Shown: in pieces, positions 2,575-6,266 of the stretch | How positions within the stretch are numbered: the first letter of the stretch is position 1 | How the letters are laid out: each line of letters begins with the position of its first letter | Origin: Eubacteriales bacterium | GTDB lineage: Bacteria > Bacillota > Clostridia > Lachnospirales > Lachnospiraceae | NCBI GenBank assembly: GCA_030539055.1 | Contig: JAUNSV010000002.1 | Coordinates: 32,513-96,512 of the forward strand | Reading direction: 5' to 3' | Length of the DNA: 64,000 nt | Notes under the pieces: generated by a model | Told to the model about the DNA's origin: nothing | What the model saw: only the letters and a program-made list of their open reading frames with translations | Databases searched by the model: none | Program-made: the position numbers and the translations under genes

Positions 2575-2580
2575 GTGAAT

Positions 2581-3558
2581 ATGAATAATATATTGGAAGT
2601 AAAAAATTTAGAAACAACATTCATAAACAAAGACAATAAAACTAAAGTCTTAAATGGCATAAGTTTTGATTTGCAAAAAGAGCATATCCTAGGTATAGTT
2701 GGCGAATCGGGTTCTGGTAAATCTGTAACAATGCTTTCTATAATGAAACTCTTAGATAAAAGAAATACAACAATAAACGGAGAAATTCTATTTTGTGGCA
2801 CAGATATATCTAAATACAATGAAAAAGAAATGCAAAAAATAAGAGGAAAAAAAATTTCGATGATATTCCAAGATCCTATGACAGCACTAAATCCTGTTTG
2901 GAGCATAGGATATCAATTATTGGAGAGTATACACTTGCATACGAATTTAAGAGGTACTAGTGCTAGTGATAAGATAATAGAATTATTAACTCAAGTTGGA
3001 ATAAGTGATGCAAAAGAAAGATTGTCTGTTTTTCCTCATGAATTATCTGGTGGTATGCGTCAAAGAGTTATGATTGCTATGGCTCTTTGCTCTAGCCCAG
3101 ATATATTAATAGCAGATGAACCTACTACAGCACTTGATGTTACAGTTCAAGCAGAAATCCTAGAATTAATTAAATCATTAACAAAAGTTCATCATATGTC
3201 CACAATAATTATAACTCACGACTTAGGGGTAGTAGTTGATTTATGTGATGAAATATGCGTATTATATGCAGGTAGAATTTGTGAAAAGGGTACTACTTAT
3301 GATATATTCAAAAATCCAAAACATGAATATACAAAAGGTTTACTCAATTCCGTTCCCACTCTAAAAGGAAATAAAAGAATGAACCCGATCGGTGGCAACC
3401 CAATCAACATTCAGGCTCTTCCAAGTGGATGCCCTTTTTATCCAAGGTGCAAATCTTCTATGAAAATATGTAAAATTGTAGTTCCACCACTTAAAAGTTT
3501 TGGCAATAACCATTATGCATCTTGTTTTATGAATGAAATTAATTCGGAGGACAAATAA
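2581..3558 (+). CDS. oppD: Peptide ABC transporter ATP-binding protein, OppD/DppD family
   Basis: Cytoplasmic ATPase of the peptide importer, 325 residues. Walker A is GESGSGKSVT, the Q-loop lies in IFQDPMTALNP, the ABC signature is LSGGMRQRV, and Walker B is ILIADEPTTALD followed by the family's DVTVQAEIL. The switch His is in IITHDLGV. The C-terminus has the oligo_HPY extension with a Cys-rich GCPFYPRC and further cysteines, a pattern associated with Fe-S binding in this family. A GTG two codons upstream abuts the preceding stop, but AGGTG fits the ATG at 2581 better. The next gene begins directly after its stop codon. Confidence 0.93.
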   Translation: MNNILEVKNLETTFINKDNKTKVLNGISFDLQKEHILGIVGESGSGKSVTMLSIMKLLDKRNTTINGEILFCGTDISKYNEKEMQKIRGKKISMIFQDPMTALNPVWSIGYQLLESIHLHTNLRGTSASDKIIELLTQVGISDAKERLSVFPHELSGGMRQRVMIAMALCSSPDILIADEPTTALDVTVQAEILELIKSLTKVHHMSTIIITHDLGVVVDLCDEICVLYAGRICEKGTTYDIFKNPKHEYTKGLLNSVPTLKGNKRMNPIGGNPINIQALPSGCPFYPRCKSSMKICKIVVPPLKSFGNNHYASCFMNEINSEDK

Positions 3559-4536
3559 ATGAATACTCCAAAAACATTAATAGAAGTAAAAAATTATTCA
3601 AAATATTTTGAAATAAAAATTGGTTTTGGTAAAAAACAAACTTTAAAAGCTCTAGACAATGTAAATTTTACAATCAATGAGGGAGAAACTCTTAGCGTTG
3701 TTGGAGAATCCGGATGCGGAAAAAGCACACTTGGTAAAACTCTCCTTGGCTTACATACAGAAACTACAGGTTCTTTGTATTATAAAAATGAATTAGTAGA
3801 TAATAATAAACGAAACTATTTAAGAGATAAAATGCAAATGATATTTCAAGATCCTTTTTCTTCTCTTAATCCAAGAATGACAATATTCGATATAATAAAA
3901 GAACCTATAGTTGTATTAAAAAAATATAAAAATAAAAATGATTTAGAAAAACAAGTTTATGATTTAATGGACTTAGTGGGTATTAGAAAAGAATATGCAT
4001 CAAGATACCCTCACGAATTTTCTGGTGGGCAATTACAGCGTGTAGGCATAGCAAGAGCTTTATCTATTAATCCCGAATTTATAGTGTGCGATGAACCTGT
4101 GTCGGCACTTGATGTATCTATAAAAGCTCAAATAATTAATTTGTTTATGGATATTCAAGAAAAGAAACATATTACTTATCTTTTTATAACACATGATTTA
4201 TTATCTGCAAGATATGTAAGCACTAGAATTATGATAATGTATCTAGGTCAAATAATGGAAATTGGAGATGCAAATGAAATAATAAATAACCCTCTTCACC
4301 CATATTCCAAAGTACTACTATCTTCTATATATGTACCAGATATAGATGAAAAAACTAAAACAAATCGTATCAAAGCTATAGGTGAAATTCCATCCCCACT
4401 AAACGCTCCTATTGGTTGTCCATATTTTAATAGGTGCCCTTTTGCAAAAGACATATGTAAAAATGAAAAACCTATTTTAAAAGATGTTTATTTCAATAAT
4501 AATTTAAATAGAAAGGTGGCGTGTCATATATGTTAA
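3559..4536 (+). CDS. oppF: Peptide ABC transporter ATP-binding protein, OppF/DppF family
   Basis: Second ATPase of the importer, 325 residues; works as a heterodimer with the OppD-type subunit. Visible motifs are Walker A GESGCGKST, Q-loop IFQDPFSSLNPRM, signature FSGGQLQRVGIARAL, Walker B FIVCDEPVSALD, and H-switch FITHDLLSARY. The C-terminus carries GCPYFNRCPFAKDIC, the Cys-rich oligo_HPY tail. The ribosome site CGGAGG at 3545-3550 is well placed for the ATG at 3559. The last codons overlap the start of the binding lipoprotein gene, which suggests translational coupling. Confidence 0.93.
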   Translation: MNTPKTLIEVKNYSKYFEIKIGFGKKQTLKALDNVNFTINEGETLSVVGESGCGKSTLGKTLLGLHTETTGSLYYKNELVDNNKRNYLRDKMQMIFQDPFSSLNPRMTIFDIIKEPIVVLKKYKNKNDLEKQVYDLMDLVGIRKEYASRYPHEFSGGQLQRVGIARALSINPEFIVCDEPVSALDVSIKAQIINLFMDIQEKKHITYLFITHDLLSARYVSTRIMIMYLGQIMEIGDANEIINNPLHPYSKVLLSSIYVPDIDEKTKTNRIKAIGEIPSPLNAPIGCPYFNRCPFAKDICKNEKPILKDVYFNNNLNRKVACHIC

Positions 4537-6266
4537 AAACGAATAAACAATATAAATTAATATTTATTATGATACTTCTATTTTCATCTTTTTTTCTATA
4601 CTCTTGCCAAGATGTAAATGGAAATGACAATGTAGGACAGGGTGAAAAAGGAGTCGTAGCAAAAATTGACTGGACTGAATATGATACTCTAATTTCTAAT
4701 ATTGCAAAAGAAACAGATCCTACTTTGCGTATGCAAATGATGCATAGAGCAGAAGATATTATAATGGAAACTGGTGCACAAATTCCTATTTTAAATGTTA
4801 TAAATAAAACTTTAATAAAACCTGAACTTAGTGGTGTATATATTACATCTACTGGTTTAGTAAATATTAATCAAGCTTATATGCCAAATAAAGATATTTT
4901 GAGTATGAAAATAATTACTGAACCATCGGGTTTAGCATTTAATCTTCTTTCTACAGAAGATACTACTTTTCTTTGCAATGCTACATCTGCTTTATTAACA
5001 AAAATAGATAAAAACGTAAAAACAACTCCTTCCGCAGCAAAAGATATAGAGATTTCTAGTGATAAACTTACTTATACTTTTACATTAAGAGATAATTTAA
5101 AATGGTCAAATGGAGAACAAATAAAAGCAAGTGATTATGAATACAGTTTTCGCTTTAGTGCTGCAGAAGAGAATGCAGCTGAAGCACGAGATTTTTTTAA
5201 GTATATAGATGGATATCCAAATAATTTAAATATAAAATCAATTGATAATGAAAATAAATTAATAATAAAACTTCAATATCCTTGTGCTTATTTTTTAGAT
5301 ATAGCAGCATATCCTACTTGTATGCCTCTTTATAAAAATGATATAGAAAATGCAAAAGGATATAAGGATGAAAATGGCAAAGTAATAGATCCAAAAGCAT
5401 GGGGTCAAACAATTGAAAGAGTGTATAGTGGACCTTATATAATAAGTGAATGGAAACACCGTGAATCTATAACATTAAAGAAAAATCCATATTATTATGA
5501 TAAAGATACTGTAAAAACTAATCAAATTGATTTAATGCTCACACAAGATGATGCTGTAATATATGATGCATATAAAAATGATGATATATGTTTTATTAAA
5601 AAAGTATCATCAAGTATTCTTCGTGATATAAAAGATAGTGATGAGTTGCATAGTTTTCCTCTTCTATCTATAAATTATATGATTTTCAATGTGAATTCCA
5701 AAATATTTGAGGGACTAACTATGGAAGAAGCATCTACTTTTAGAAAAGCTCTATTTTATGCTATAGATAGAGAATTTATAGTCAATGTTGCTTTACAAGG
5801 TGGTGCTATTCCTGCAAATACTCTTGTTCCAAGTGCTTGCTTAGATGGAAACGGTGAATTATTTAAGAAAAATAGTGAATATTATACTTATCCAGATAAT
5901 ACTAATGGTGAACTAGGATATTTTCCAATAAAAAGAGATATAGAAAAAACTAGACAAATTCTTAAATCATTAGGATATAAATTTGATAAAAATAACAAAC
6001 TTGATACTCCTATTACTATAGAATATTTGTTTAATCCATCACAAATAAATTCCCTAGTTGCAGAGTGTATACAACAAGACTTATTGGAACTTGGTATAAG
6101 AATTAAACCTACTAGTATGGAAATAGCTCAATTTCTTTCTCAAAGAGCAACAGGGCAGTTTAATTTATCTCGTGGTGGTTGGAATTTGGATTATGATGAT
6201 CCAAGTTCATTTCTAGATATAAATGCAAGTAAAAGCCCAAATAATTTTGCACAATATGGAAAATAA
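4530..6266 (+). CDS. Peptide-binding lipoprotein of SBP family 5 (OppA/DppA-like) with circularly permuted order
   Basis: Extracellular lipid-anchored solute receptor, 578 residues from the ATG at 4530. A hydrophobic signal ends in LYSC, giving a lipid-modified Cys26. After a Gly/Asn-rich linker, residues 47-118 (4668-4883) resemble the normal C-terminal end of family 5 proteins: YDTLISNIAKETD, HRAEDIIMETG, IPILNVINKTL and KPELSGVY. Residues from about 123 then resemble the normal N-terminal half: IITEPSGLAFN, LTYTFTLRDNLKWSNG and ASDYEYSF. The protein stops after DYDDPSSFLD and SPNNFAQYGK, the point where the first module would normally follow. Nothing resembling the missing end is encoded downstream. 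The chosen start follows AAAGGTGG; a GTG at 4521 is too close to it. Family is clear; the permutation is read by eye and not aligned. Confidence 0.9.
   Translation: MLKTNKQYKLIFIMILLFSSFFLYSCQDVNGNDNVGQGEKGVVAKIDWTEYDTLISNIAKETDPTLRMQMMHRAEDIIMETGAQIPILNVINKTLIKPELSGVYITSTGLVNINQAYMPNKDILSMKIITEPSGLAFNLLSTEDTTFLCNATSALLTKIDKNVKTTPSAAKDIEISSDKLTYTFTLRDNLKWSNGEQIKASDYEYSFRFSAAEENAAEARDFFKYIDGYPNNLNIKSIDNENKLIIKLQYPCAYFLDIAAYPTCMPLYKNDIENAKGYKDENGKVIDPKAWGQTIERVYSGPYIISEWKHRESITLKKNPYYYDKDTVKTNQIDLMLTQDDAVIYDAYKNDDICFIKKVSSSILRDIKDSDELHSFPLLSINYMIFNVNSKIFEGLTMEEASTFRKALFYAIDREFIVNVALQGGAIPANTLVPSACLDGNGELFKKNSEYYTYPDNTNGELGYFPIKRDIEKTRQILKSLGYKFDKNNKLDTPITIEYLFNPSQINSLVAECIQQDLLELGIRIKPTSMEIAQFLSQRATGQFNLSRGGWNLDYDDPSSFLDINASKSPNNFAQYGK

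Follow-up and report, generated by a model that had tools for sequence, protein, structure and literature searches.

Background

Substrate-binding proteins of family 5 (PF00496, cluster C), among them OppA (8are) and DppE (8ay0), are exported, have both parts of the family fold and are encoded with oppBCDF operons. A protein encoded in the window, by which we mean the whole 64,000-nucleotide stretch of DNA that was analysed, resembles them in all of these respects; compared with OppA 8are and DppE 8ay0, however, its C-terminal ~70 residues come first, and its chain both starts and ends in what is a loop of the canonical protein.

The precedent lies in another cluster of binding proteins. TpMglB-2 (Tp0684) of Treponema pallidum is presented, in the accessible part of its report (PMC4990184), as a cluster B sugar-binding protein whose chain is circularly permuted by nature, named 'Cluster Bc'; the same part describes it as the tethered binding protein of an ABC importer, demonstrates glucose binding and a change of shape, and mentions homologues in Gram-positive bacteria, many of which live in the gut. 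Brautigam and colleagues propose there that anchoring may have favoured this topology. TpMglB-2 and the window protein are alike in being permuted bilobed binding proteins of ABC importers (the latter as judged from sequence), yet the window protein is not a member of Cluster Bc, and the two differ in fold cluster and substrate. Moreover, the portion of PMC4990184 at hand describes one arrangement and reports poor conservation of the permuted part (13% identity), whereas in family 5 the moved module has a clear alignment with the corresponding canonical segment. More than one cut point in one fold family, as found here, is also described for the permuted GTPases YRG/YlqF and cpRAS (PMC2430557, to the extent that its text was available), which are unrelated to family 5 in fold and function.

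Results

The window gene and its operon

Five genes follow one another on the forward strand of the window: oppB (570-1481, start placed by inspection) and oppC (1474-2574), encoding the two permease subunits, oppD (2575-3558) and oppF (3559-4536), encoding the two ATPase subunits, and then the gene for the permuted binding protein (4530-6266), the start of which overlaps oppF by 7 bases. All were delimited as open reading frames (ORFs), the last of them also by profile matches. The oppB product is 31-63% identical to those of the permuted and canonical operons that we read, and oppC, oppD and oppF are neighbours kept in relatives; the operon upstream of the binding-protein gene is intact, in agreement with the preliminary description, which had called the upstream ATPase genes normal.

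The binding-protein ORF runs from an ATG at 4530 to a stop at 6264-6266 and encodes 578 amino acids. A hydrophobic signal peptide ending at Cys26 (4530-4607) was recognized by eye, with a lipobox-like LYSC that is atypical in having tyrosine at -2, and is followed by a linker of ~22 residues (4608-4667) that leads from the presumed lipid anchor to the new N-terminus. Next come a module that by homology corresponds to the end of the canonical chain (residues 47-118; 4668-4883), a new turn in which the former C-terminus passes into the former N-terminus (residues 119-123; 4884-4898) and, from residue 124 to residue 578 (4899-6263), the family 5 fold from its N-terminal through its middle part, which ends in NNFAQYGK. 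We refer to this cut point as type I.

A single match to the window protein, its own gene, was found in the source genome (83 contigs), and this genome is the only one of 13 in its genus to have a match. The window protein is also the most divergent type I member (branch of 1.62 on the tree); given this divergence and the sole match among the 13 genus genomes, its function may be relaxed.

Order of the parts

We compared the window protein with a canonical family 5 profile of 580 columns built from 99 linear proteins, in which the mature part occupies columns ~64-572. Residues 47-118, excised, scored 56.8 bits at columns 501-569, and the best of 1000 shuffled modules reached 6.3 bits against the same profile. 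When the whole protein was aligned, columns 501-571 preceded columns 65-499. Single proteins and a curated model agreed more weakly. By phmmer, in OppA 8are, residues 120-572 match positions 18-447 and residues 50-118 match positions 456-524 (9.4 bits, weak on its own), so that the module maps behind the main match, as it also does in DppE 8ay0 (residues 49-112 on 451-514, 12.7 bits). The NCBIfam OppA model NF011684 places residues ~50-111 on positions 471-531 of 543 (E = 0.0041). In Pfam, PF00496 matches residues 166-572 from profile position 3 to 367 of 368 (218.6 bits against a cut-off of 32.4, E = 1.8e-64); it was the only Pfam family listed for the protein at E up to 1, and by this measure of sequence the cluster B (MglB-like) fold is not found.

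These results bear out the preliminary description in its main lines. It had assigned residues 47-118 to the normal C-terminal end of family 5 and the rest of the chain to the N-terminal half onward, ending where that module would continue; both assignments hold, with the refinement that the module match begins at about residue 50, and the order of the parts is that expected of an in-frame permutation. The module did not fail to align with the C-terminal end of the family, nor was a normal full-length alignment from residue 47 onward obtained, either of which the description had named as contrary evidence. Its proposal that the two parts be searched separately against PF00496 was borne out for the main part, while the module alone (residues 47-118) has no match in Pfam, although the canonical profile does match it. 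It had further suggested that NNFAQYGK, at the end of the chain, would run into DWTEYDTLI, near the start, and the two are indeed the sides of one loop, which the canonical relative L024 shows closed ('GNNDTQFGKDPSNTAAPDWTKYDELI'). The claim that the downstream DNA encodes no other copy also stands, as no second module above 8 bits was found in 600 nt downstream of the gene in three forward frames.

The C-terminal end of the family 5 fold is present in the window protein but lies in front, so the canonical order of parts is not kept. On these sequence grounds, the protein is filed as a permuted variant of family 5 (PF00496, cluster C) and not as an ordinary member.

Distribution of the permuted order

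We searched 300 genomes from the family of the source organism with the window protein, and 225 had a match. The permuted order, recognized as a collinear match from residue 35-47 to residue 578 (from residue 1 in the source genome itself), was found in at least 24 of the 300, the source genome included, at 34-39% identity. The loci of 23 others were read, of which 22 (L003-L006, L008-L023, L025 and L026) contain full ORFs. Two further loci, L032 and L197, the latter from another order, are also type I, giving 26 type I proteins with that of the window; the same order in related genomes, which the preliminary description had proposed to look for, thus occurs in 25 others, one gene being interrupted. 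A search of plasmids matched 3092 records. The interrupted gene, L007 (also read as L138, from the single-contig genome G283), carries one in-frame TAG; it is counted here as type I, automated classing having given type III because of the broken frame.

Among the 23 permuted proteins of alignment A1, 79 columns are invariant, nine of them within the moved module. They include W551 and D554, in a region which we take to be the one that anchors the peptide N-terminus in OppA. Because the invariant columns run through both parts, both look constrained in sequence, as would be expected of a folded, used protein. Most type I proteins have a lipobox-like cysteine; three (L008, L011 and L015) have a signal peptide without a lipobox, resembling plain secreted proteins and unlike most of their relatives, and a pattern scan of L032 found no lipobox.

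Of the 25 other type I genes, 21 were read in their genomic context, with ORFs of at least 150 and at least 250 amino acids considered. In 19 of these 21 stretches, oppB, oppC, oppD and oppF precede the permuted gene, one of the 19 (L203) having an extra linear family 5 gene in front of oppB. Of the remaining two, L141 has the permuted gene first in the operon, and L144, on a cut contig, has oppD and oppF only. The permuted gene is the sole family 5 gene in 20 of the 21. Six canonical relatives (L146-L151) occupy the same place in the same operon; therefore, permuted and canonical proteins serve orthologous transporters.

Number of switches at the type I cut

We constructed a tree of 41 binding proteins, rotated to a common order, comprising 23 permuted proteins and 18 canonical proteins of the clade; the window protein was excluded on account of its long branch. 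The permuted proteins do not form one clade, and forcing them into one costs 106.7 log units (p-AU = 1.3e-10, in a test which, like those below, assumes a group named before the tree, here with groups set by gene order and the trees already viewed). At least four changes of order are needed on this tree. The joined OppB, OppC, OppD and OppF proteins of 21 operons, which make no use of the binding protein, likewise reject a single permuted clade (173.5 log units, p-AU = 1.6e-41) and, for the 18 rows that carry a permuted type I or a canonical label, require at least four changes; here the window row was kept, and rows of types III and IV (see below) were left out.

With the window row again excluded for its long branch, trees were also made of the body and of the module separately, and the best tree of each has five changes. 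One permuted clade is rejected for the body (p-AU = 2.2e-5) and not for the module (p-AU = 0.088). The latter result is compatible with a single clade of permuted modules, as would be given by one transferred module; on this view, the original C-terminal end of the gene disappeared, and a module copied from a paralogue or acquired by transfer was added at the front. We consider such a transplant very unlikely, as modules tend to follow bodies: the permuted L025 pairs with the canonical L035 in whole, body and module trees, the canonical L027 falls among the L010-L022 group in all three, and L030 does so in the whole and body trees and is near that group in the module tree. The lack of a second family 5 gene close by in 20 of the 21 stretches also counts against it. 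The switches may all be repeated gains or may include reversals.

Other cut points in family 5

Beside type I, we found three further cut points in 14 proteins. Type II, cut at column 178|183, comprises L060, L063 and L064 (genomes G551, G457 and G434), each encoded by the last gene of an oppBCDF operon. In a quick tree of 41 rows, which also served for types III and IV below, the three form one clade (support 91, not starred). With 67% identity to the nearest canonical relative, type II may be of fairly recent origin. Type III, cut at column 332, comprises L070 (G343) and L108 (G649); because one clade is rejected (p-AU = 0.00024), this cut has arisen in two lineages. Type IV, cut at column 410|411, comprises L105-L107, from the search of the class, and L188-L193, from a search of the phylum, and is spread over several families in at least two classes. 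One clade of type IV is not rejected (p-AU = 0.059), though it is absent from the best tree. Types II, III and IV also adjoin opp genes, and five type IV proteins (L188 and L190-L193) have, by eye, a plain signal peptide.

The phylum search used a doubled canonical query against 299 genomes, 255 of which had a match. At least six rows straddle the join, from 353 to 858-869. Rows from ~8 to 1004 proved linear where loci existed (L174, L180 and L185), and L116 was one false straddle of the doubled-query screen, beside 33 true ones. Altogether, 216 ORFs (179 distinct) were classed, of which 40 are permuted: 26 of type I, three of type II, two of type III and nine of type IV. The share of 40 in 216 is not a frequency, as most loci were chosen for their similarity to permuted queries. 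Among solved chains, none spans both parts of a permuted query (window protein and types II-IV) in one stretch within the best 60 of 71, 60 of 67, 57 of 57 and 60 of 86 matched sequences.

We regard the evidence as evenly balanced on a broader proposition, namely that the family 5 fold is a natural hot spot of permutation. It would have at least four cut points, all at loops by eye from the alignments, and at least five independent events (one each for types I, II and IV and two for type III); at the type I loop, orthologous operons would differ by at least four switches of order, perhaps not all in one direction, and in those proteins that are lipoproteins selection would have favoured relocation of the membrane tether to a different face.

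The cut loop and the joining of the native ends

The type I cut falls in the loop at columns 494-506 (from 'NND.QFGK' to 'YD.LI'), which has a median length of 13 residues over 140 linear rows. It is expanded in 30 of these, the nearest relatives among them, and has at most 13 residues in the other 110. A loop of 21-25 residues occurs in 17 rows (L024, L027-L031, L033-L037 and L146-L151, the last six repeating some of the genes of the others), and in the tree L024, L027-L031 and L033-L037 belong to the clade in which all type I rows are found. A loop of 41 residues occurs in 13 rows (L044-L047, L050, L052, L053, L072 and L198-L202), of which L044-L047, L050, L052 and L053 form the next branch beside the type I clade and L198-L202 were left off the trees. 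The permuted proteins end directly before the loop insert and begin within it.

The 13 canonical proteins with the 41-residue loop carry a conserved 28-residue insert at the type I cut site (in L045, '...SLDLTDLGYDTKVENGTWAET...'). Six matches that end near query residue 394 were followed up as candidate type I cases; L197 is type I, and five (L198-L202) are canonical with an expanded loop.

Where the canonical ends meet, at the join of columns 572 and 64, the gap between the two profile matches is -5 to +2 residues in 33 permuted proteins, of which L023 ('KFFMYATLANGSDTLRINLASE') is an example with almost no linker; such near-linkerless joins are found in all four cut types. Since a turn suffices to join them, this argues that the native ends would lie side by side. 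In Salmonella OppA, both ends are in domain I.

The shortness of the join also bears on whether the product is a simple rotated monomer. The monomer is a reading of sequence (AlphaFold, given the window protein as a single sequence, returned a pLDDT of 34.5), and a short join could suit a swapped dimer, in which the module completes a second molecule, or a cleaved product. We consider either very unlikely, as hardly any linker separates the canonical ends in any of the four cut types, an arrangement in keeping with a hairpin formed by a single chain; by analogy, the solved natural permutant of another cluster behaved as a monomer, according to the accessible part of PMC4990184.

Discussion

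The window protein is very probably an OppA/DppA-type substrate-binding protein (family 5, cluster C) whose chain has undergone natural circular permutation, and one that is exported, is probably lipidated at Cys26 and serves as the binding protein of the adjacent OppBCDF; the source genome has no other match to it. The old C-terminal module comes first, a short turn links it to the old N-terminal part, and the chain ends in a surface loop of which the nearest canonical relatives have an expanded form. We infer that neither the three-dimensional fold nor the peptide cleft has changed and that the protein would still bind peptides and hand them to OppBC, while the exit of the membrane tether would have moved from the native termini to the opened loop. 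An assembly artefact or a dead gene, which the 83 contigs of the genome, the lack of a match in any other of the 13 genus members and the in-frame TAG of the relative L007 might suggest, is hardly credible given a full-length ORF in an intact operon, 79 invariant columns in common with 22 relatives, and the same order in 25 other genomes, which as independent assemblies (two of them single-contig, G197 and G283, the latter with the TAG-bearing copy) also make the misassembly considered in the preliminary description very unlikely.

The permutation most likely arose through tandem duplication, which the preliminary description had suggested as a possibility. The two copies would have fused in frame, a new start would have placed signal peptide and linker ahead of the module, and a new stop would have ended the chain in the loop. 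Among the loci examined, neither a fused gene nor any other intermediate was found. The flanks of 33 permuted genes, to 300 nt upstream and to at most 600 nt downstream (less at locus ends), contain no true vestige of the lost parts as a match above 8 bits ending beyond column 75; the matches that did appear were the part of L007 that lies beyond its TAG and, at L108, 21 residues that belong to the start of that gene itself. In L010, L021 and L022 the module match starts at columns 489-491, which is too short to be claimed as a duplication scar. Two candidate double binding proteins, in frames of 1149 and 1221 amino acids (G821 and G856), proved to be separate genes, three per stretch. These stretches (L212 and L213) each have three canonical family 5 genes on one strand, all adjacent in L213, and in L212 two adjacent and one ~1.8 kb away; such sets are raw material for the duplication route. 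A separate observation concerns a 1060-residue frame (L073:1211-4390, reverse strand) that adjoins a separate family 5 gene: judged by eye, it has a Ser/Thr protein kinase-like part, a membrane segment and a canonical family 5 domain (columns 54-570), and from its sequence looks like a receptor kinase with a binding-protein sensor.

The anchoring idea put forward for TpMglB-2 could, by analogy, be applied to the family 5 permutants. A moved lipid tether cannot explain every case, because L008, L011, L015 and L032 lack a lipobox and L188 and L190-L193 have a plain signal peptide.

The preliminary description knew of no permuted OppA, and we found no report of a permuted family 5 protein in the open-access literature, as far as its text was accessible, most subscription papers and preprints being outside that scope. 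Within these bounds, permuted family 5 proteins are new, and the natural permutation of binding proteins as such is already known from TpMglB-2. Their existence calls for caution with profile searches, which drop the moved part: Pfam reports only residues 166-572 of the window protein. Natural permutations are seldom met with both forms in one and the same operon. In family 5, orthologous transporters are served by permuted proteins in some genomes and by canonical relatives in others, the opened loop can be seen as an expanded one in canonical relatives, and several cut points occur in one fold. Together they form a natural series in which to study the origin and the cost of permutation and to ask whether docking to the importer depends on where the membrane tether is placed.
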